The notes beneath the pieces were generated by a model. It was not told the DNA's origin and did no database searches. It saw nothing but the letters and a program-made list of their open reading frames with translations. A stretch of DNA of 64,000 nucleotides from Tubulanus polymorphus (taxonomy: Eukaryota; Nemertea; Palaeonemertea; Tubulaniformes; Tubulanidae), in NCBI RefSeq assembly GCF_964204645.1, contig NC_134033.1, forward strand, positions 248,001 through 312,000, written 5' to 3'. The translations under genes and the position numbers were made by a program. Shown here one piece after another: positions 22,331 through 63,868 of this stretch. The first letter of the stretch is position 1; each line of letters begins with the position of its first letter.

Positions 22331-22394
22331 GGATTCATAACTATTGCATCATATTGATTATAAAATACATTCCACATTTTGAATTGTAGGCCCT

Positions 22395-25172
<2,778 letters not shown>

Positions 25173-46120: not shown

Positions 46121-49100
46121 ATGAAGACACGTTTGTTCTTTATAATCTGCACAGTTTTGTTGCAACTGGGAAATATATACATTACACAAACATCTGGAGC
46201 TGAAAGTAAGTTACTGCAGCCGCCATTACTAGACTTTGTAATTATATTTCAGTCAGATTTGCGAATTCGATGACGTCAGTTGTTTAATAATAGATTCACT
46301 ACAGGCCCTAAATGTAATCTGACAAAAAGAACAAACAATAAACACATCTGGACCCAGTTCCATAGTCGCGAGTTAGAGTTAACTCTGAGTTAAAGTTAGT
46401 TCATTTTCAATGAGTTAACTGAGGGTCAAATCTTAACTCTGAACTGGACCCTGGTTGATTTAATTTCACATGAAGTTTGTATCTTGATGTCTGGTTTGAT
46501 AAAAAACGAGTCGCTGATATAATCACCTCACTTACCAGTGGCGGAGTCAGACATTTAAGTAGAGGGGTCAAGTGCACTTTTTCCCAGGTATCTCTCATAT
46601 ATCTCAATGAAAAATACATTCATAAAACCGTGTGCAGTAATTCCCGGCAGACACCGCGCGAAACAGAAATCGATAAAGATTTGAATCGTCGTTAATTTCA
46701 TCATTAATACGATTGATGTTTATATTAATTTGTTTAAGGAATTTACGGGACGCCTCATTCCGCTCGAGATGCAAAACCCGACAATAAAACGCAAGGAGAA
46801 ATGATTCGATATACTTGTAAAATAATTGGCGGAAATTCTAGAGTAATATTCCAAGAGAAGAGAAACGGTTCGGGACAATGGTTAACAGTTCCAGACGACC
46901 AGCTTAACAAAACTAAAGACAAACTGAATGTTGAGTTGGTTGAGCTAAAATTCAAAGCAGATTTCAATCGATACAATGGATCTTCATTTAGATGTCTTGT
47001 AAATGAAAGTCCAACATATCCGGAACCTCTTCAGTTTGATCTGATTGTAGTTAAACGAACTGGTAAGTTACAGTTTGTGTTGCTTATTGAAATAATCAAA
47101 CAATTTAGAACATTAAAACTTGCATTCTTGGTTTTCTTAGAAATAACATAGTTAAATTGAGCTGATAAAATGTCTTATATCTGGTAGTTCGTTTTTAGCC
47201 TATTTGGGAATTTAGTCCCAGCGGGCTAGTGCGTTCACTTTTCATCCGTTGACGGAATCCAGTTATTTTGACGAAGATTCAAGACTGGCGGCCATTGTTG
47301 TCCGCCAAAATCAGTACTTTTTACACATTTTTGAAGTTTTTGAGGGAAATAAAACAATGTGGTTTAAAAGGGAAGGGCGACACGAGCGTATTTTTTCACC
47401 CGATCGCGACGATTCAATTCGCCAGCGCGAATTTAAACGCCCGATACGAGCGGGCACACGTAGCGATTCAACCAAAATTCGGTCAGCGACTGGCACTTAT
47501 CATATCTATTTTATATTCTTAACAGTAACTTTTATCAGGAACTGGACCAAGCAAAGTGAAAGAATCACTTACAAAATGTAGTTTTGTTTTTCTTATTTCA
47601 GATCATGCAGGTTCCAATCAAATCCCGACGATTGAAACCACAACACTGGGGTGAGTTTACATTTCGAAAATAGTTAAAAATGTCCCAGGGAAAAAATCCC
47701 CGGACGATGTACGGGCTCCTGTTGTTTCGTAAAAACGGCTCGTTATGGTCGATGTTTGTTTTGTGAAATAACTTGATTTGATATCTAGCGTGTCTCATTG
47801 GCATTTAAAATCGGAATAAGAATCGGGTGCTGGTTGGTGTATGATCAATGCTTAGAGGTTTATATGTGTTGATGTCAATAAACCGAACTTGTAATAAAAA
47901 CTGAGACATTCAATAATTATTCATGTCATTTTCCACAATGAACTGAAATATTCGATAACGATTTTGCTGCTAATTTATTTTAATCGTAAATTACGCCCTT
48001 TTCATTCAGAGTTCGTCGTCTGGTTATTACTGAAAATGATGGCTCGAAAGTCAAGGTCATTATGAATTTAACTTATTATCAAACTTTCAATATGTGAAAT
48101 GATAAAGTCCCCGGATGTAACGCACGGAGTCTAATTATACCCGCTTAATTCAGGGTAAAACAAAATACACTTTGGTAGATTATAATACAATATCTAAATC
48201 TGATACCATCATCAGTTTCAACTCTACATCAGGGGCCGGTTCCATAGTCATGGCTTAGACTTAAGACCAGTCTAAGACCAACTTGGTTCTATAGCCAATC
48301 TAACAACTTAAGACCAGTCTTAAGATTTAAGGCCACTTTTGGACATAAGTCACGACTGTGCAACTGGGCCCAGAGTTCGGTAAAATGGAATTATTATCAT
48401 TACTCGTTTATTGTTCTCAGACTGACCCCACAAACCGGCTTAAACTGGACCACACTGACTGGACCATGACGATAGTTTACATCGCTTGTGGAGTCATCGG
48501 TTTCCTCCTCATCATCATTTCTATCGTTGTTATCGTCATCGTCATCATCATTTGCAGGTATTTACTGAACAAACAGCAGATTTCTGTAGAGATTATAAAT
48601 ACGTTTGTCTCATTGTTCACCAACATCTACAGTTCAATGTCAAGGTCGATTACTATTGATAAGAGGTCGTCATTAGTTCCAAGTCAAGTTTGTCAGTGAC
48701 GTCATTTATAAATAATAACATATCCGCGCACTTCGATTAGAACACGATAAAATGTGTTATTGTACATGTAGGCTTTACCGAGATAATGGCAAACAAAAAA
48801 AAAACTAGTCAAAGTTTTATTTTTATCACAACAAATAAACGTGAAATTTTAGAATTGATAAGAGATCAGATTTTTGGAAGGAATGCCTACTGGCGGTTAA
48901 TTAATTAAACTCTTCTAATTCCAATAAAGAAAGGCCCAAGTTCCAATTGACTCCACTTATTCTTCAAACTAATAATAAACTCATCACTGAACACGTGTTT
49001 TATAAGGGGCACACACCGGTTTATGCGGAGTTAAATCTTCTTTTTTTAAGAATGTTTCCTAAATGCGAGTTCTTGTGGTTAATGACCTAAAAAATTATAA

Positions 49101-50075
49101 TCTCTACTCAAAATCTGACGTTATTTCAACCATTTCATTTTTTTCTCGGTCGATTTTTCCACTGCTTAAATTATCAATTTTTTCAGACGCAGACGACCTA
49201 TCGGTGAAGGTCGTGTGGAGACTACAACTCTGACTACAACACCGCAGCAACAACTCGAGATGTTAGATGAAGTCTATGATGAGTTGTATGATGACATAGA
49301 TTCTGATAGTGACAGTAACAAACTGCACACCAGCAATCAGAAAACTACTACAGATCCATACATTGATATGGAAGCCGGGAAGGGCAAAGATACGGCTCCT
49401 TATATTGATATGGAAGCCGGGAAGGGCAAAGATACGGCTCCTTACATTGATATGGAAGCCGGGAAGGGCAAAGATACGGCTCCTTATATGGATATGGAAG
49501 CCGGTAAGGGCAAAGATACGGCTCCTTACATTGATATGGAAGCCGGGAAGGGCAAAGATACAACTCCTTATATGGATATGGGACCTGGAATAGAGGCAGA
49601 TACATACATGAGTACTGAAGGCGCGATACGCACAGACACAACTCCCAGCGCCGGAGGAGACACAGATCAATACATGAATCCTGAAGCCTTGGAGACAAAG
49701 TATCTTCAGTTAACGGGAGATACTGATGAACCTTTAGCAGATGATGTTTATTCTTACGCTACTGTTGAATATAAAGCTCCTTATATGGATATGAGACCCG
49801 GAATAGACGAGGATACATACACGAATACCGAAGGTGCACTGGGCAAAGATACAACTCCTTATATGGATATGGGACCCGGAATAGAGGCAGATACATACAT
49901 GAGTACTGAAGGCGCGATACGCACAGACACAACTCCCAGCGCCGGAGGAGACACAGATCAATACATGAATCCTGAAGCCTTGGAGACAAAGTATCTTCAG
50001 TTAACGGGGGATACCGATGAACCTTTGGCAGATGATGTTTATTCTTACGCTACTGTTGAATATACTTGTGATTAA
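46121..50075 (+). CDS. Ig-superfamily receptor 1 with tandem YxxM signalling tail
   Basis: Six GT-AG exons in consistent phase (46121-46205, 46739-47062, 47602-47650, 48010-48055, 48421-48557, 49187-50075) encode 509 aa. Exon 1 is a signal peptide (LFFIICTVLLQL core). Exon 2 is one Ig-like domain with the cysteine pair in IRYTCKII and SSFRCLVN and the conserved stretch ELKFKADFNRYNGSSFRC. Exons 3-4 form a short Thr-rich stalk. Exon 5 is a transmembrane helix (about 184-213), followed by the stop-transfer RRRRP. The 296-residue tail, almost all in one exon, has eight YxxM motifs at Y272, 286, 300, 314, 328, 342, 413 and 439, plus YMNP (376, 473), YTNT (425), YLQL (386, 483) and YATV (404, 501). 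YxxM is the p85/PI3K SH2 docking consensus and YxN suits Grb2 SH2. The short exon 4 is the weakest part of the model. Confidence 0.8.
46352..46456. mobile_element. fold-back element in receptor 1 intron 1
   Basis: A diverged copy of the family at 17886-17975: starts ACCCAGTTCCATAGTCGCGA, has internal GAGTTAACTCTGAGTTAAAG and ends TTAACTCTGAACTGGACCC. Confidence 0.6.
47195..47345. repeat. dispersed repeat, copy in receptor 1 intron
   Basis: Shares TTTAGTCCCAGCGGGCTA, GCGTTCA, GAATCCAGT and TTTACACAT..TTTGAAGTTTT blocks with 59470-59605 in the paralogous receptor 2 gene. Either a mobile repeat family or shared ancestral intron sequence. Confidence 0.6.
48236..48375. mobile_element. fold-back element variant just upstream of the receptor 1 transmembrane exon
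   Basis: Begins GGTTCCATAGTCATGGCTTA and ends AGTCACGACTGTGCAACTGG, with internal CTTAAGACCAGTCT inverted words. It ends about 45 bp before the exon 5 acceptor. Confidence 0.55.
49345..49600 (+). repeat. 42-bp coding repeat (14 aa, YIDM/YMDM unit)
   Basis: Five 42-bp units encode the 14-mer PYIDMEAGKGKDTA with YMDM variants. The frame and the tyrosine motif are preserved in every copy. Confidence 0.95.
49561..50062 (+). repeat. 291-bp coding duplication in the receptor 1 tail
   Basis: A 97-codon block (from TTPYMDMGPGIEADTYMST to DDVYSYATVEY) occurs twice with a 291-bp offset and only a few silent or single-base differences. Confidence 0.93.
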
Positions 50076-55008: not shown

Positions 55009-58000
55009 ATGAAGATGAAGAACTGGACCTGTTTGTTAATTCTACTGCTGACAATCAAGTTTTATTCAGAAGCTGCATCGGTACGAAATAAGAGAAATAC
55101 CGGTGAGTTTAAATGATGTGTCTATACTGGTATCAACCATCACTAGGCGGTTACCAGAATTCAATTTCAATTTTGAAAAAACTGCTCAAGGCATCTGGAC
55201 AGTGTGAATGTATTACCGGGTACAAGAATATTACGTATATTGTGTATTTGATATTTCAGCACCTGATGGAGTTGTACTGGACAGTGTGAATGTATTACCG
55301 GGTACAAGAATATTACGTATATTGTGTATTTGATATTTCAGCACCTGATGGAGTTGTACTGGACAGTGTGAATGTATTACCGGGTACAAGAATATTACGT
55401 ATATTGTGTATTTGATATTTCAGCACCTGATGGAGCTGTACTGGACAGTGTGAATGTATTACCGGGTACAAGAATATTACGTATATTGTGTATTTGATAT
55501 TTCAGCACCTGATGGAGTTGTACTGGACAGTGTGAATGTATTACCGGTTACAAGAATATTACGTATATTGTGTATTTGATATTTCAGCACGTGATGTAGT
55601 TGTACTGGACAGTGTGAATGTATTACCGGGTACAAGAATATTACGTATATTGTGTATTTGATATTTCAGCACCTGATGGAGTTGTACTGGTCAGTGTGAA
55701 TGTATTACCGGGTACAAGAATATTACGTATATCGTGTATTTGATATTTCAGCACCTGATGGAGTTGTACTGGTCAGTGTGAATGTATTACCGGGTACAAG
55801 AATATTACGTATATTGTGTATTTGATATTTCAGCACCTGATGGAGTTGTACTGGTCAGTGTGAATGTATTACCGGGTACAAGAATATTACGTATATTGTG
55901 TATTTGATATTTCAGCACCTGATGGAGTTGTACTGGTCAGTGTGAATGTATTACCGGGTACAAGAATATTACGTATATTGTGTATTTGATATTTCAGCAC
56001 CTGATGGAGTTGTACTGGACAGTGTGAATGTATTACCGGGTACACGTGTATTACTGTCGCAGGAAGGCAAAAATGTTAGTATTACCTGTAAACAGAGCAG
56101 CTCTACAGCGACTGGTGTAGAATTCCAGCTACAAGTGAACAGTGGAGCAGGAGGGGCCTGGACTCCAATACCGCTCGGTGTATCGAAGTTGTGGAAAATT
56201 TTACCTGAGGCTGGTAAAATGTATAAATGTGTGGCCACTAATTCAGCCGGAAGGAAAGAAAGTAAAATCTACCAATCAGATGTAATCAGTGAGTATAGCG
56301 GGAACCTCGTAAATCAGTTTGTCATTAGATAATCATTTTTTTCTTCAAAATTCGACTGAACCTAATTTAAATATTGCGGAAAGAAAATATGATGAAATAG
56401 ATTACTGTCTTAGCTGAATTTCCGTCATATATACTTGCAAAAACCTGTGGAAACAACAGCAAGGCCTGGTTCCACAGTTGTGAGGTAAAGAGTTAACTCC
56501 GAGTTAAAGTTAGTTCATTTTCAGTGTTTTAATTAAGACTCTTTTAACTTAAGTCAAATTCCACAATTTCCACAATTTCGACTTAAGTCAGTTTCCACAA
56601 CTGTGGAACTGGATCATGAGTTTTAAACCAGAAGTCAAATTTTACAATTTCTTTTATACATGTATGAATATTATCAAAAATTCATAAAGAGGATTTATCT
56701 TAGATATGATGCGTTATGTGATATCTCTAGAACCCAGTGATACCATGTGGGATCTCGGTAGAATTAGATTTAGCCTGTGCCCTCTACTGGGGCGGTAAAC
56801 TGGTTACAGATCCTATAGTTACCGTAGAGAACAATGCTAATAAATGAGAAAAAAATACGTTCCTCAGCTACGAGTATTTATTACACTCCAACCATTTCCA
56901 CGGTATATGGAGGAAAAAATAGTATTCAGAATTATTTACAAAACAGAAAATAAAATCAACTTGAACCGAAACAAACTTTATTCTTAACGTTGTATTTACG
57001 ATTTATACTATTGGAGGGATTTCACATCTAGACCTAATTTGATAAATTTATTCAGATTTAAAGTTGAATTTTTTAATCCAAGGTTCCTAAAAGGGTTTAA
57101 ATTTAAGTAAATTTTACGAGATTCGGTGAGTTACTAATATGAAATACGCCACGCAATCGATAGAAACTGGAACTATGATTGTGCTGGGGTTGCAATGTTA
57201 ACTATTTGTAAATACACTTGTTACGGACCCAAAAATCTGAGGTCAAAATATAAACACAATCGACCTGATTACAGAGGAATTCAAACATTTCCCGTCCACC
57301 ACCAATTATAGTATGATTTTCTTTATAGGTATAAACATAAATGAAAACCCGTGTAAGATGGCTCAATTCCAATCGCTGACTTGTACTTGTAAAGCCATTA
57401 GTAAAATCGGTAATCCAAACATAACAGTTAAATGGTTTGCTGATGGATTTTCTGAAGGTGAAACTGATTTTTATGAGATTACTAAAAAACATGACGTAAA
57501 TACTCCGCTAAAAGATGGAGTTATCAACAGGATTCAGAAAGATTTTCGTCTCTTGATGCACGCGACATTGACTCAATGTCGTTTGTGGGAGTATAATGGG
57601 ATAAAACTACTGGAACCACCTCACAATCAAATACAACATCAAACTCCAATGGATGTTACGTGTAAGTTGAATAAACATTGTTTTGTATTTGTTGCCCTGA
57701 GCATAGGACATTCTATTGTTAATACCACAGTTAGAGATTTAGGAGTTACTTGGATAACACTTTTACAACGACGGCTGATCGTCTCTGAGTTTCTTTCGTT
57801 TCGATATTTGGTCGCAATGAATAAATTTGCTTGTATTTATTTGCTTTGTGAAAATTTTCGAAAATCAATGAACAAATGTTTTTCGAAAATCAATGAACAA
57901 ATGTTGTTGACGTGATAAGGTTCTAGACTGATCAGTAAAATTGTGAAAAGAAATTAAATAATATATACATATAATCAATGATAAATCAAATCAATAATGA

Positions 58001-61000
58001 TTAAATATGTAACAAATTCTATCCATTAAATACATTTACATCTTTTTCTTTCAGATTTTCCTGTTGAAATTCTGACGAACGATAATTATACGGGAAAACC
58101 TGACATTAGAACACCAGGAGAAATTGTAGAATATACTTGTAGAACAGTTGAAGGGAGGCCCGATCCTACAGTGATATACCAGCAGAAGAGAAAAGGTTCT
58201 GAACAATGGCAGCCAATTCCTGATCCACAACCTCTTAAAGTACCTCACAAAGGGGGTTTTAACACGACCTACAAGTTTAAAGCTGATTTCAAACTGCACA
58301 ATGGAACCTCATTTCGATGCGCTGTAAAGGAGAACCTTACGTTTCCAGAACCTCAGCAATTCAATCCAATCATCGTTTATTGTAAGTAACAGATTTATTT
58401 TTCTGAAATATCTTCCATAGAAATTGGCTTTGGGTTTGAGCGATGGTACAAACCTCTTGTCGTAGTAGATCTATGATCTACCCTGAACATGTCACGATGA
58501 CATCAGGTTCGAATCCCTCCCGATGGATGATGGGTCTACTATGTCAGGGTTTCAGAAACCTTAAAAACTTTTAACTTTTGCTTTTATCAGATTTTGCACC
58601 AGATTTCAAGAAAGACGGTGAAAATGAAACACACGCGGCGTATATTGTAACAGTTAATAGTAACCTATTGACTCAACAAGTTACATGTGACCCTCCAGCT
58701 GTCGTTCAGAAACTATCAAACTCTCAGTGGAATATAACCATACCTATCCTAAACAGTATGGTAACTGACTATAGAGGGCGCTGTTTGGCTGACGGTATTA
58801 ATGAAAGGGCCATTTATGTCGCTCGTTATCATAACGCCGGTCCAACTGATAAACCAGGTAAGATTCCGGGTCAGAACTGGATAAGTTTTATCTGAATCTG
58901 AACAACTGCTCGAAGTCATCTCCTCTTGACCTGATGAATTGCTTCAGTCGTCATCGGAAAATTAATTATATTCAACTGAGGTCATCTCTATTTTTTGAGT
59001 TTCAAGATATTTGTGATTTAATTGACTAAGTGTAACCTATGTGTTAAAAAGTCTTATCTGAACTAGAATTCAGATCAGTTATTTTTTTCATTTTATCACG
59101 TGTCACATTTGAAATGTACCACATATATTTGATATATGCAATATTCAAAATGCTGTAACTTCTATTTAGACGCCAGTTAACCCCTGAACACGTGTTTGTT
59201 ATTTCAATTGCTGATTTATTGAAATTGTAGTTGTCGATGGATGGAATGGAATAAAAGTGGCTGGTGTTGTAATCGGTATATTGATATTACTGATTCTGAT
59301 TGTACTGTTTATTCTGTGGCGTCGTGGCTGCTGTAAGTTTTACATAAAACCATCATTTAATCTGAAGAAAACAATAATTTAACCATGAACGAAGTCAAAA
59401 CGGAACGTGATATTCCTAAATGAACAGTAGTAGAATTGATATTGAAACAAGCAGTATTTCTGATTTTAGACACTTGGGACTTTAGTCCCAGCGGGCTATC
59501 GCGTTCATTTGTCGCCCGTCCACCCGTCCGTTCGTAGACAGAATCCAGTAATTTTTGAAGACGCTGTTTTACACATATTTCAAGTTTTCGAGGGAAATTT
59601 TGAAGACGCTTTTATTATCTTGATCATATGTATTTGTATCCCCCCAGGGCCCATCAGCATAAGAAAAAAAGGGTCAAATGGACACAAGATGACCGTCCTG
59701 TGACTTTTTTGTGCCCAAAAATGTCATCTGGTTTGTAATTTTTCATTTAAATTTGTGCTGGCTATTCTGTGGATTGGAATCTTCAATAGCTGGTACAGGT
59801 ATTTTTCATCAGCCAATTATGACGCAATTGGCGGCCATCTTGGTGTCATTAGTACTCATTCGTAGGTGGGAAAAAGTTTTTCCACATTATATTGATACCT
59901 AAGCGTATTTTGTTCCAACAATCAATTGCAAAATTGTAACTCATGTCATCGTCTATGATTGTGGTGAGTTTCAAGGTCATAAGTTATTCTATACGGTTAC
60001 CAGGGGGCGTTGAATATCGAAATTGTTAGGTTGTTGAGCATTTGAAACCACTTTCCAAGCAAATGGTGTCCCTGAACCCCTAGTTTAATTTACAGTCACG
60101 TGTTTGGATCCGAAACCTAAAGATGTGATTGAATTGTTGCGTTGGACAAGTGAAACCTGGTATGAAAAAGGTAAGATTCTCTCACATGATTTACTGCACA
60201 TATTCTCAGATATCGGTTTGATAATTTTAGGTGTTTTTTTTTTCTTTGCAGATCATGAAAATTGGGTGAAAACACGTGACCGACCGCAGCCAGGTATTTA
60301 TAGAATTATCAACCTTTTGATACTTAAAGATATTTTAATTAAACGAAGTTCATTAGTAAATCCATATAAAATGTTACTCGATATTTTCTATACTGTGATT
60401 TTGCTGTTTTATTTTACTTCCATCTATAAGTTTTGATAATCTCTGAGCGAATGATGTATTTTTAATATAATTCTAACTCTTGAGACTGAATGTCTGTGAT
60501 ATTCTCAGATCATCGCTAAACAGTAATCGGACACTTCATTCCTAGACTATTCATTTATTTTCTGTCAGATAACGATTATTTTTTGTTGTACTTTTCTTCT
60601 CATCAGATCTCATCCACTGATGCAATCAATCATGCAATGTTGCTCATAATTCGAAATCATATCAAATAGATAATTATCCATTTAAAAACATAACAGAATT
60701 ATAAGATCAGTTAATTATCACATATAAATTCGGCGGCCATCTTAGAGTCATCAGTCCTCGCTCATAAGTGAAAGAGTTTTTTTGAGGAAAATATCAACAG
60801 GTTTTTAATTTATAGTCTTGATATAAGATTATTATTAGCACTTTAAGAGGATACGTCTCCTCACGTGAAATTGAGTTATCCGGTTGTCTATTCTAGCCAC
60901 CAGGGGGAGTTGATTATTGAATCATATACGAATTATTTATTGGGATATTTTATCACAATCAATCGCAAACTTATAATTGTTGTGATTTTAATTTTTTGCT

Positions 61001-63868
61001 CGAGAAAATATAACTTAAAATTGTTCATTCATCAAAAACTTGATTGTTTGTGACGCCAATGTCTTCATTTGAAAGCCAATTAATTATAAACAACTTTTTT
61101 ATAGAAACTGTTAGAATAATAAAAGATGTTTACGGAACCGAGAATGATTGGGAGTTAACGAGAGATAAGGATAAACAAGGTAAGAGTAGTGACTGGTAAG
61201 AGAAGTGAGTGGTAAGAGTAGTGAGGGGTAAGAGTAGTGACTGGTAAGAGTAGTAAATGGTAAGAGAAGTGAGTGGTAAGAGTAGTGAGGGGTAAGAGTA
61301 GTGACTGGTAAGAGTAGTAAATGGTAAGAGAAGTGAGTGGTAAGAGTAGTGAGAGGTAAGAGGAGTGAGTGGTAAGAGTAGTGAGTGGTAAGATGAGTGA
61401 GAGGTAAGAGGAGTGAGAGGTAAGAGTAGTGAGTGGTAAGAGGAGTGAGTGGTAAGAGTAGTGAGGGGTAAGAGTAGTAAGAGGTTTAGAGTAGTGAGTG
61501 GTAAGAGGAGTGAGTGGTAAGAGGAGTGAGAGGTAAGAGGAGTGAGTGGTAAGAGGAGTGAGTGGTAAGAGGAGTGAGAGGTAAGAGGAGTGAGTGGTAA
61601 GAGGAGTGAGTGGTAAGAGGAGTGAGTGGTAAGAGGAGTGAGAGGTAAGAGGAGTGAGAGGTAAGAGGAGTGAGTGGTATGAGTAGTGAGGGGTAAGAGT
61701 AGTGACTGGTAAGAGTAGTAAATGGTAAGAGAAGTGAGTGGTAAGAGTAGTGAGTGGTAAGAGGAGTGATATAAACAATTCACAATTGAACAAATACTTT
61801 TTATATTTCATTTCAGAAAAAGGTATCAAAGAATCCGCGTTCCAACAGTTATCACGTGATCAAAGTAAGCTATAGTTTGTGTTAGTTTAAGTTCATGTAC
61901 ATGATTACATGCACATGTCACATAAGTGTACATGCACATGTTTGTATTGTTTAAATGTACATATATCAGTTATGTGTGAATTCATACATGTCAGTAACAT
62001 GTGAATGTGAGTTCAATTAACACGAGTTTAATCAATATATTTTCAGACATGTTAGATTTGGTCAAAGAAATTCTAAGTAAGTTCAAGATATGACTCGGTA
62101 TTTCCTCTTCAACTCGAATCTTGGATTCAAATGTGTTTATAATTATCTATTGACAGGAAAATACTTTAGAATAAACAATTTAGAAACGAAACTATCAAAT
62201 GATATCGGTAAGATTTGATTGAATACAGTTATTGATGTATGAGTTTATTGATTATTATTCTACTGTCAACTCATTTTGTAAATGTATTACAGATACATTA
62301 CTGAACAAGAAGAGGTCAATAGATGGCGCTGATGCAGTTTACAATAGAGATGAAGGTAAGTTATTATCATACACTGTTCATAGACGAAATCAATTATTCT
62401 GCTTTACTGATTAAAATGAAGCAAATCTCATTCAAGATGGCCGCTGGGCCGCCTTTTGGCAATGTTAAAGAGGCCTATACCGATTCTGGAAAACCTTTCT
62501 GGGGGTTTCGTTTCAACCAAAATACTTCGTATACATTCCGGAATAGTGTAATCCGTAAACCGGATTGAAGTGACCGGTTAAGAATTTGTAATCTGGAATT
62601 GATATTCCTAAACCTGAATATTTACAATCAAAACCTGTTTTGTTGCAATTTCTGGTCTAAATTCCGCATTTCATACATCGAATTTGAGATGTTTTACTCA
62701 CGCGTGCCAGAATATCACTAATTCAACAGTTGTTAATAATCCATCCTTGGATTAAACAGAACTAATATAGGTACATTCAAACTCTTATTATTGTTATATG
62801 CTGATGATACGGTTATACTCGCCGAGACGCCAGAAGGACTTCAATGTGCCCTTGATAATATTTCTAATTACTGTCATGTAATGCATATCGGAATTAATTA
62901 TGAAAAAACGAAAATTGTCGTCTTTAGAAAAGCTGTCAATGTAAGAAACTTTGTTTGGAAGATTGATGGACAAGTAATAGAAAGTGTAAACTGTTTTACA
63001 TACTTAGGTATGGATTTCAATTTCAATGGAAAACATAATGTAACTATCAACAGTCTGGCTTCTCGGGGAGTATCAGCATAATATAATTTCAGAAAATACC
63101 TTCTGCAGTATCCAAAAGTCACACCCAGGCTAGCCATTAAATTTTTTAACAGCCTCGTGGTACCTGTCTTAACTTATGGCTGCCAAAATATGGGGTTTCA
63201 AAGAACAAAGAAAACTAGAGAGAATCCCTCTCAAATTTTATAAATACCTCCTGGGAGTTAAAAACTCAACACCTGATAACTTTGTATTTAGTGAAATTGG
63301 TAAATATCCAACACATATTCAGCAAAGAATGTTAATTGTGAAATATTGGCTTAATATACATAAAACTAAACCCGAGAAACTAACTAAGCTGATGTACAAT
63401 CAAATGTTAGATGATATCATACGTGATCACCGTGTAATTAATAAGCTTCTTTGGTTAGAGATCTATTGAATGGCCTAGGATATGTGGAATCTATGTGGAA
63501 AGGCTTTCAATCGCCTTTGGTATATATTATGTATTCAATGTATTTATATACTTGAATTATTTACCCGCCATACATTATCATGTAATTGTGTCATATCATT
63601 AAAAAAAATTATATTTTTTTGATATAATAAACTAATAAATTAATATAAATCCCACAATGAGAAAGAAAAATTAGTCCGACTTACAACAACAAAATTAAAA
63701 CAAAGAGCAAAGAGACTAATTGAGATATGATATTGATTTCAATTGAACTAATTTCATCTTAATTTCTTTAATTCAGATGAAGCACATGTTAGTTTTATAA
63801 CGCAATTGAATGAAGAGAAAAGACCCCTGACAGACAAAGAGAAACAGTTCATCACAGATGGTCAGTAA
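55009..63868 (+). CDS. Ig-superfamily receptor 2 with four Ig-like domains and a micro-exon tail
   Basis: Fourteen in-phase exons: 55009-55102, 55998-56288, 57329-57661, 58055-58381, 58591-58857, 59231-59332, 60096-60170, 60252-60293, 61105-61179, 61817-61864, 62047-62076, 62157-62207, 62293-62355, 63777 onward. Reading on from exon 14 reaches TAA at 63866-63868 (629 aa); splicing at 63860 to an acceptor at 63982 would end instead at 63993. Exon 1 is a signal peptide (LLILLLTIKFYS). Exons 2-5 each encode an Ig-like domain (VSITCKQ/MYKCVATN; LTCTCKA/TQCRLWE; VEYTCRTV/SFRCAVKE; VTCDPP/YRGRCLAD). Exon 4 is a close paralogue of the receptor 1 Ig domain (YKFKADFKLHNGTSFRC). Exon 6 is the transmembrane helix ending in LWRRGC. 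Every internal exon is phase 1-1, so each can be skipped in frame. Small missed exons are possible, and 3' completeness is uncertain. Confidence 0.78.
55195..55997 (+). repeat. 82-bp minisatellite carrying the receptor 2 exon 2 acceptor
   Basis: Ten copies with an exact 82-bp period. Each contains TTTGATATTTCAG|CACCTGA, the intron end, and about 45 bases of exon 2 start. Acceptor AGs end at 55259, 55341, 55423, 55505, 55587, 55669, 55751, 55833, 55915 and 55997; only the last leads into the complete Ig exon. Entering at an earlier copy meets an in-frame TGA before the next unit. Confidence 0.95.
56462..56620. mobile_element. fold-back element in receptor 2 intron 2
   Basis: Arms CTGGTTCCACAGTTGTGAGG and CCACAACTGTGGAACTGGAT, with internal inverted TTAACTCCGAGTTAAAG and GACTTAAGTCA words. 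Family of 17886-17975. Confidence 0.65.
58460..58555 (+). mobile_element. weak tRNA-like element
   Basis: A B-box-like CAGGTTCGAATCCCTCCCG lies about 50 bases after GTAGATCTATGATCTACC, with partly complementary ends (GTAGTAGAT and GGTCTAC). It does not fold as a functional tRNA and may be a second SINE type. Confidence 0.35.
59470..59605. repeat. dispersed repeat, copy in receptor 2 intron
   Basis: Partner of 47195-47345, with TTTAGTCCCAGCGGGCTA and TTTACACATATTTCAAGTTT. The same intron also has GGCGGCCATCTT-type sequence (about 59833) that recurs near 60732. Confidence 0.6.
60359..60597. repeat. dispersed 236-bp repeat, copy 2
   Basis: Partner of 52407-52642, in the intron after receptor 2 exon 8. 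Confidence 0.9.
61179..61770 (+). repeat. 16-bp minisatellite made of 5' splice sites
   Basis: About 37 copies of a GGTAAGAGTAGTGAGT-type 16-mer that begin exactly at the donor of receptor 2 exon 9 (AAACAAG|GTAAGAGTAG). Every unit contains GGTAAGAG, a near-consensus donor. The minus-strand LLLPLT repeat frames are artefacts. Confidence 0.95.
62760..63470 (+). pseudogene. non-LTR retrotransposon reverse transcriptase remnant
   Basis: Starts within the RT palm with LLYADDTVILAETPEGLQ (the YADD catalytic motif). It continues through the KTKIVVFRK and YLGMDF thumb-like region and into a C-terminal segment with IWGFKEQRKLERIPLKF and YLLGVKNSTPD, typical of animal LINE ORF2 C termini. An in-frame stop near 63080 and a frameshift near 63170 break it, and the 5' end is missing, as in 5'-truncated LINE insertions. 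It lies in the last intron of receptor 2 in the same orientation. Confidence 0.85.

Follow-up and report, generated by a model that had tools for sequence, protein, structure and literature searches.

A clustered ribbon-worm family of predicted single-pass Ig receptors with tandem YxxM motifs in their tails

Introduction

Phosphorylated YxxM motifs recruit the p85 subunit of PI3K to CD28, ICOS, DAP10, CD19, BCAP, the IRS proteins and PDGFR; the IRS proteins have many YMxM sites, and PDGFRbeta has YMDM. In these proteins the motifs are dispersed and do not form, as in the tails described below, a tandem repeat in DNA that changes in copy number, and the IRS proteins are not receptors. The repetition of a tyrosine docking motif has parallels in the YxxP substrate domain of p130Cas and in the EPIYA segments of Helicobacter CagA, whose motif number differs between strains according to summary accounts. 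Neither of these, however, is an Ig receptor, and their SH2 partners are different.

Other described systems resemble the present locus as Ig families. The Alr allorecognition family of Hydractinia, with 41 members according to the excerpts available (PMC11999971), is likewise a clustered invertebrate multigene family of Ig-type surface proteins; it belongs to another phylum, the comparison is by description only, and those excerpts mention no YxxM arrays for Alr. The oyster receptor CgIgIT2 is described in the same excerpts (PMC11999971) as having five Ig domains, a transmembrane (TM) segment and an ITAM. Like the receptors reported here, it is a lophotrochozoan Ig receptor with a tyrosine signalling motif in its own tail; unlike them, it has one ITAM where they have 1 to 19 YxxM motifs, and five Ig domains where they have one. 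From the nemertean Lineus ruber, 16 Ig-plus-TM proteins with a CRIg-like domain composition are described (PMC9835746); these, too, are nemertean transmembrane Ig proteins, compared here by description only, and tail motifs are not mentioned in the part of that account consulted. The vertebrate paired Ig receptors (FcR-like, KIR and LILR; described in part in PMC2413239) are also duplicated, linked in groups and provided with differing tails. Unlike those pairs, the locus under study has a partner with a long cytoplasmic region that lacks a recognised domain, and an activating/inhibitory pairing is not established for it.

Among open-licence papers, judged by title or the start of the abstract, we found neither a precedent for Ig receptors in which a PI3K-type motif is multiplied by a tandem DNA array nor a described family of nemertean Ig innate-immune receptors of this kind; the titles of open-licence papers on the Tubulanus polymorphus genome included nothing on immune receptors. 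Clustered invertebrate Ig families and lophotrochozoan Ig receptors with tyrosine motifs are already known; the tandem PI3K-motif array is the element for which these searches returned no precedent.

Results

Structure of the gene and its predicted protein

The stretch of DNA that was analysed (hereafter, the window) is a 64-kb segment of the genome of T. polymorphus, a palaeonemertean (C9:248001-312000); genome searches were run on the assembly of 267.8 Mb. Minisatellites are dense throughout the window (1-64000). It also contains an open frame of 929 aa (22383-25172) with a CAG/polyQ tract and a 108-bp repeat.

The gene of interest, LOC141910843 (P0001), occupies 46121-50075 and has six exons whose in-frame joins yield a protein of 509 aa (Table 1). 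A sequence-only reading had proposed a six-exon, single-pass Ig receptor with the last exon as its tail. The in-frame splice model bears this out: its product, compared by reading, is identical to the 509-aa NCBI protein, so the NCBI model, too, connects the tail exon with the Ig and TM exons. The end of exon 4 that is given in Table 1 produces this form, and a donor after 48049 gives 507 aa instead.

Table 1. Positions of the principal features within the window
Feature	Position	Strand	Basis
Exon 1: signal peptide	46121..46205	+	in-frame splice model, agrees with P0001
Exon 2: single Ig-fold ectodomain (fold predicted)	46739..47062	+	
Exon 3: stalk	47602..47650	+	splice model; P0001
Exon 4: short stalk exon	48010..48055	+	splice model; P0001
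Exon 5: membrane-proximal stalk and TM helix	48421..48557	+	splice model
Exon 6: cytoplasmic tail and stop codon	49187..50075	+	splice model
42-bp tandem array, 5.4-6.1 copies	49355..49604	+	Tandem Repeats Finder rows 49355-49581 and 49349-49604
YxxM codon starts in the 42-bp array	49359, 49401, 49443, 49485, 49527, 49569	+	motif positions
Duplicated 72-residue block, copy 1 (YMDM, YMST, YMNP, YLQL, YSYATV)	49557..49772	+	72/72 residues identical to copy 2
Duplicated 72-residue block, copy 2	49848..50063	+	72/72 residues identical to copy 1
Partner receptor gene, 5' part	55009..63860	+	in-frame splice model of 14 exons; runs on beyond the window

No Pfam family matched the ectodomain, and Ig families were absent among the 23 Pfam families matched by 11 proteins of the receptor family. 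Six PDB sequence matches to the ectodomain had E values of 0.059 or worse and were taken as chance; matches to TMEM154, EphA2_TM, ECSCR and similar Pfam entries were dismissed as likeness between TM helices. Because there was no Pfam match and no credible PDB sequence match, a structure model was used, and it predicts an Ig beta-sandwich fold. Two cysteines of exon 2, C26 and C85, lie about 60 residues apart, are present without exception in all 16 of the Ig exons that were aligned (16 of 16) and would form a disulphide.

The tail of the window gene

The tail begins with a basic stretch (RRRRP) and comprises 296 residues, among them 23 tyrosines. Eight of the latter stand in YxxM motifs, at tail residues 59, 73, 87, 101, 115, 129, 200 and 226. 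Motif positions and Tandem Repeats Finder agree with the layout first read from the sequence, in which five YxxM motifs belong to 14-residue (42-bp) units, three belong to a duplication with a period of 97 residues, and YMNP, YLQL and YATV recur, each of these three being present twice. The two copies of the 72-residue block are identical as protein and match at 212 of 216 bases as DNA; an extra YMDM lies between them, at 49782.

Is the number of motifs greater than composition would give? When the residues of the tail were shuffled, the mean was 1.3 YxxM and the maximum 6 in 20,000 shuffles, against the 8 observed, a comparison that overstates the excess because motif copies arose by duplication. 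With the tail collapsed to a single copy of every part, 2 YxxM remain where 0.42 are expected (p = 0.056). Better evidence for the motif comes from its conservation across units and paralogues, to which we return below. Four Yxx[LI] sequences are present as well (tail residues 31, 35, 173 and 270). An ITAM (YxxL/I-x(6-8)-YxxL/I) was not found: none of the 36 open tails collected from the genome has two Yxx[LI] starting 9-12 residues apart.

A family of related receptors in the genome

At least 64 matches to the tail, the window gene included, were found in the genome. By our own count they fall at 40 places, mostly on two contigs (C6, 30; C9, 8; C19, 1; C11, 1; all lower bounds). Matches to the Ig exon likewise number at least 64, partner-type Ig exons included, and at least 19 places resemble the TM exon by DNA, counting the window copy. 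At the protein level, a search with the 507-aa variant as its query, and not the 509-aa form, returned 17 proteins, and a profile built from 11 of these returned 19. All matches (17/17 and 19/19) are from T. polymorphus; since each search scored about 8,000 candidates that share most words with the query, this describes the hits and is no claim of absence elsewhere. One NCBI model among the relatives, P0014 (LOC141911244), has ubiquitin hydrolase Pfam domains followed, at the C-terminal end, by an Ig exon of this family and is perhaps a prediction artefact.

We read 37 of the 40 tail places, leaving out C6:18472051, 22240224 and 22233119, and excluded one (L045) from the tail table as its frame is broken over two, which gives 36 open tails. 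These have between 1 and 19 YxxM apiece. Six genes at 4.2-5.1 Mb on C9 have 1 each and ten at 21.75-22.09 Mb on C6 have 3 each; the tails at 22.81 and 22.38 Mb on C6 have 19 and 12. The 672-aa tail of L032 (C6:22784300-22787300) has 10 YxxM, 14 FxxM and 8 YMNV. It contains 32-residue units in which FMNM or FMDM, their tyrosine lost, alternate with YMNV, YMNM or YMDM.

Motif number differs even between close relatives: P0012 and P0013 are 90% identical in ectodomain and TM yet have 4 and 2 YxxM, and P0001 and P0003, which share 80% there, have 8 and 1. The ten near-identical C6 genes with exactly three motifs each indicate, on the other hand, that the array is not hypermutable everywhere. Similar tails also occur on a quite different ectodomain (P0009) and on a divergent one (P0016 and P0017), which raises the possibility that the tail is a movable module. 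The window gene itself looks mosaic relative to the C9 4.2-5.1 Mb group: DNA identity is about 90-91% at and upstream of the Ig exon, whereas most of the 3' half is only 73-82% identical; in some pairs a patch at the TM exon reaches 89%.

A degenerate DNA pattern of the 42-bp unit matched the genome 81 times (54 forward, 27 reverse), and its reversed control did not match at all. Compared by eye, all 81 matches fall at known tail places, an agreement that is partly circular because the tail query includes the unit. A fairer and independent measure is the non-repeated proximal segment of the tail, which is present in 34 of the 36 open tails that have units or YxxM (L011 and L042 are without it). 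The earlier proposal that minisatellite expansion multiplied the motif is supported, and motif number ranges widely among paralogues. What that reading lacked is that the receptor belongs to a large family, accompanied by a partner gene that recurs.

Conservation of the motif within the repeat units

To avoid redundancy, 14 near-identical tails were set aside (nine of the ten C6 21.75-22.09 Mb genes and five of the six C9 4.2-5.1 Mb genes), leaving 22. Tyrosine is retained in 113 of 121 units, or in 113 of 135 if the 14 FxxM half-units of L032, which lie outside the unit filter, are counted. In 103 pairs of adjacent units from 21 tails, the tyrosine codon alternates between TAT and TAC while the residue is kept: pS is 0.74 and pN is 0.044 (pN/pS 0.06), as against a pN/pS of 0.61 for the spacer and 0.50 for all unit positions. 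The p-value for this difference (Fisher p = 2e-5), like the others reported here for units, is too low by an unquantified amount, as units share descent. Conservation was assessed among paralogues, whose histories may be linked by gene conversion. Asp -4 has the same pN as tyrosine, and the Thr residues at -3 and -2 come close (0.058 and 0.072); the constraint therefore covers the entire DTTPYxDM block and not the tyrosine alone. Such an Asp-Thr-Thr-Pro-Tyr block would suit a tyrosine-kinase substrate combined with an SH2 site. Over whole tails, pN/pS is 0.34 in the C6 group and 0.73 in the C9 group, the latter value denoting weak constraint.

The positions that follow the tyrosine were compared with the specificity of the p85 SH2 domains, which accept Met, Ile or Val at +1 and want Met at +3. 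The 113 tyrosine-bearing units have M, I, V or L at +1 in 110 cases and Met at +3 in 96. Although ATG is the commonest codon at both positions, the ratio of Ile to Met at +1 is 17:90, as against 3:96 at +3 (p = 0.002); Ile occurs at +1 in 11 of the 22 tails and at +3 in 3. The assignment of YxxM as a PI3K-type p85 docking motif in the original reading is accordingly consistent, at the level of sequence, with the residue preferences (hydrophobic at +1, Met at +3) seen in 22 tails.

What becomes of units that lose Met+3? Asn+2 is present in 13 of the 17 tyrosine units without Met+3 and in 11 of the 96 with it (p = 1e-7); with L032 excluded, the counts are 5 of 9 and 7 of 86 (p = 0.001). Such units usually appear to drift from the PI3K rule toward the Grb2 rule (Asn at +2), not to nothing. 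The description of the array as a series of YxxM sites needs amendment: the motif is conserved, but some units have turned to YxN or lost their tyrosine.

These data also bear on two other explanations of the array. According to the first, it is one of the window's many minisatellites that happens to be exonic and encodes, passively, part of a disordered tail; its frame is kept, but its motif plays no part in signalling. The window is indeed rich in tandem repeats (108 Tandem Repeats Finder rows, overlapping rows representing one array), units in some genes are near-identical, as homogenisation would leave them, and the conservation of Asp -4 equals that of tyrosine. A passive repeat, however, would not account for a tyrosine that survives TAT/TAC alternation, or for a Met at +3 that behaves unlike the Met at +1 encoded by the same codon. 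Moreover, the unit does not roam but keeps company with the proximal tail segment, and tyrosine sites outside the array, namely those of the distal YMNP/YLQL/YSYATV block, are conserved too, in 11 copies from 9 tails. We therefore disfavour this explanation and consider it distinctly improbable. It appears that the motif, beyond the mere reading frame, is under selection.

The second takes the motifs as endocytic signals of the YxxPhi type, recognised by AP-2 mu2, so that the rate of internalisation would be set by the array. In such signals Phi may be Met, Ile, Leu or Val, and the YVKM of CTLA-4 works as one; YMDM and YIDM conform. A permissive Phi would nevertheless admit Ile at +3, where it occurs in so few of the units relative to +1; the YTNT units do not conform; and the loss of Met+3 is accompanied by Asn+2. 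We regard this explanation as highly improbable.

Tyrosines outside the YxxM class raise a third alternative, namely that the tail acts chiefly as a scaffold, either of the Grb2/adaptor kind or mixed, for which PI3K is not the main partner and YxxM is one of several docking types. The 22 non-redundant tails hold 247 tyrosines: 108 in YxxM, 35 in YxN, 36 in Yxx[LIV], 65 in other contexts and 3 too near the end. Proximal and distal tyrosine sites also recur across subfamilies, as a mixed scaffold would predict. Still, YxxM is the largest class of tyrosine and the one that has been amplified, and we judge a mainly non-PI3K scaffold improbable. The reading that we prefer is that p85 docking is the principal selected role of the tail, which these patterns make fairly probable.

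Variation in the ectodomain

Evolution of the ectodomain was examined with Ig exons caught by sequence pattern. In the distal Ig exon of five C9 paralogues, counted after one extra codon of L013 was removed, every one of the 16 segregating sites is nonsynonymous (under neutrality, P about 0.02). Relative to the window gene, the C9 paralogues differ in the Ig by 3-3.5 synonymous and 12-22.5 nonsynonymous changes. Of ten pairs in which the C9 distal Ig exon was set against both flanking introns, two show higher divergence in the exon (p = 0.018 and 0.002), four significantly lower divergence and four no difference. A diversifying signal is lacking in the Ig exons of the C6 cluster (pN/pS 0.37) and in the second (proximal) C9 Ig (0.69). 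Taken together, these values give a faint hint that ectodomains diversify. The upstream intron of L015 and L017 seems in part to have undergone conversion or replacement.

A linked partner receptor gene

Downstream of the receptor lies the 5' part of a second gene, in which a signal peptide, four ectodomain exons and a TM exon (59231-59332) are followed by many small cytoplasmic exons. Its third ectodomain exon (58055-58381) is of the Ig type and akin to exon 2 of the window gene. NCBI proteins P0020-P0027 are related to this partner gene; its own Ig matches are sub-threshold, and one relative, P0024, passes the Pfam cut-offs. In another, P0026 (LOC141907029), the long cytoplasmic region (residues about 230-1000) matched neither a Pfam family (E <= 0.1) nor any PDB sequence. 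Cys-rich clusters precede that region in P0026, where palmitoylation would be possible. All of the hits to the partner (8/8, with about 8,000 candidates sharing most words scored) are from T. polymorphus, and other-species homologues were not among them.

The partner Ig exon has 23 close relatives (>=76% identity), all on C6, and for 17 of these a YxxM tail lies on the same strand no more than 20 kb upstream, one tail being common to two of the 17. Random placement gave a mean of 2.1 such pairs and a maximum of 8 in 5,000 trials. In the 17 pairs, the partner lies about 5-16 kb downstream of the tail, in the same order as in the window. The pairs are not independent events, however, because duplications copied both genes together. 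Pairs recur at separate sites on C6 (18.35-18.39, 21.76-22.09, 22.28-22.38 [minus strand] and 22.76-22.82 Mb) and also on C9. A downstream partner accompanies 16 of the 30 C6 tails, and 14 are without one; the C9 4.2-5.1 Mb group showed no close relative of the partner nearby.

The partner gene contains repeats of its own. An 82-bp tandem repeat (10.4 copies, 55195-56044) has a unit that includes a 3' splice acceptor together with the first part of the following exon, so this acceptor is repeated many times. A 16-bp tandem array (36.9 copies of GGTAAGAGTAGTGAGT, 61179-61769) begins at an exon donor, so donor-like sequence is repeated about 37 times. Reverse transcriptase-like open frames that look like remnants lie at 62740-63470, in a modelled intron.

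Discussion

The genome of T. polymorphus is predicted to encode a p85 regulatory subunit: at C2:27.96 Mb, the Pfam p85 iSH2 family scores above its cut-off, and the best PDB matches of two adjoining open frames are the two halves of the p85alpha nSH2 domain (E = 2.7e-18 and 1.6e-24). In the mechanism that we propose, ligand binding would cluster the receptor, whereupon a Src-type tyrosine kinase would phosphorylate the tyrosines of the tail. Each pYMDM or pYIDM could then dock class IA PI3K (p85-p110) through an SH2 domain of p85, and the YMNP, YMNV and YTNT sites could dock Grb2 or, at YMNP, Crk. With a long array, one receptor might recruit several PI3K molecules or hold them through rebinding, and repeat expansion would make array length set the signalling gain, member by member.

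On the comparisons presented here, we think it probable that the genes form a lineage-specific family with a role in recognition, made up of duplicated single-pass Ig receptors whose tails offer multivalent docking to PI3K and Grb2. A function in recognition, most probably immune or self/non-self, is suggested by three features: the genes are clustered, all hits come from one species, and a second Ig receptor is linked; our confidence that the family acts in immune or self/non-self recognition falls a little short of even. A more elaborate scheme appears doubtful, namely a recognition system specific to the ribbon-worm lineage and made of a duplicated two-gene cassette, in which the PI3K-array receptor acts with the multi-Ig partner and its long cytoplasmic region, array copy number sets the PI3K gain for each receptor, and single units switch between PI3K and Grb2 specificity.

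Related receptors with 1 to 19 docking sites in one genome amount to a natural dosage series. Evolved proteins could thus be used to address an old question: does PI3K signalling scale with multivalent SH2 docking, or does it saturate? The family also supplies candidate receptors for non-self recognition in nemerteans. To our knowledge, no receptor has been named for graft rejection in Lineus. In these worms, xenogeneic grafts are rejected with a memory component of three months, according to the part of the account consulted (PMC2248247). If the cassette scheme were true, and if relatives of these genes exist in other nemerteans, they may underlie that rejection and its memory.
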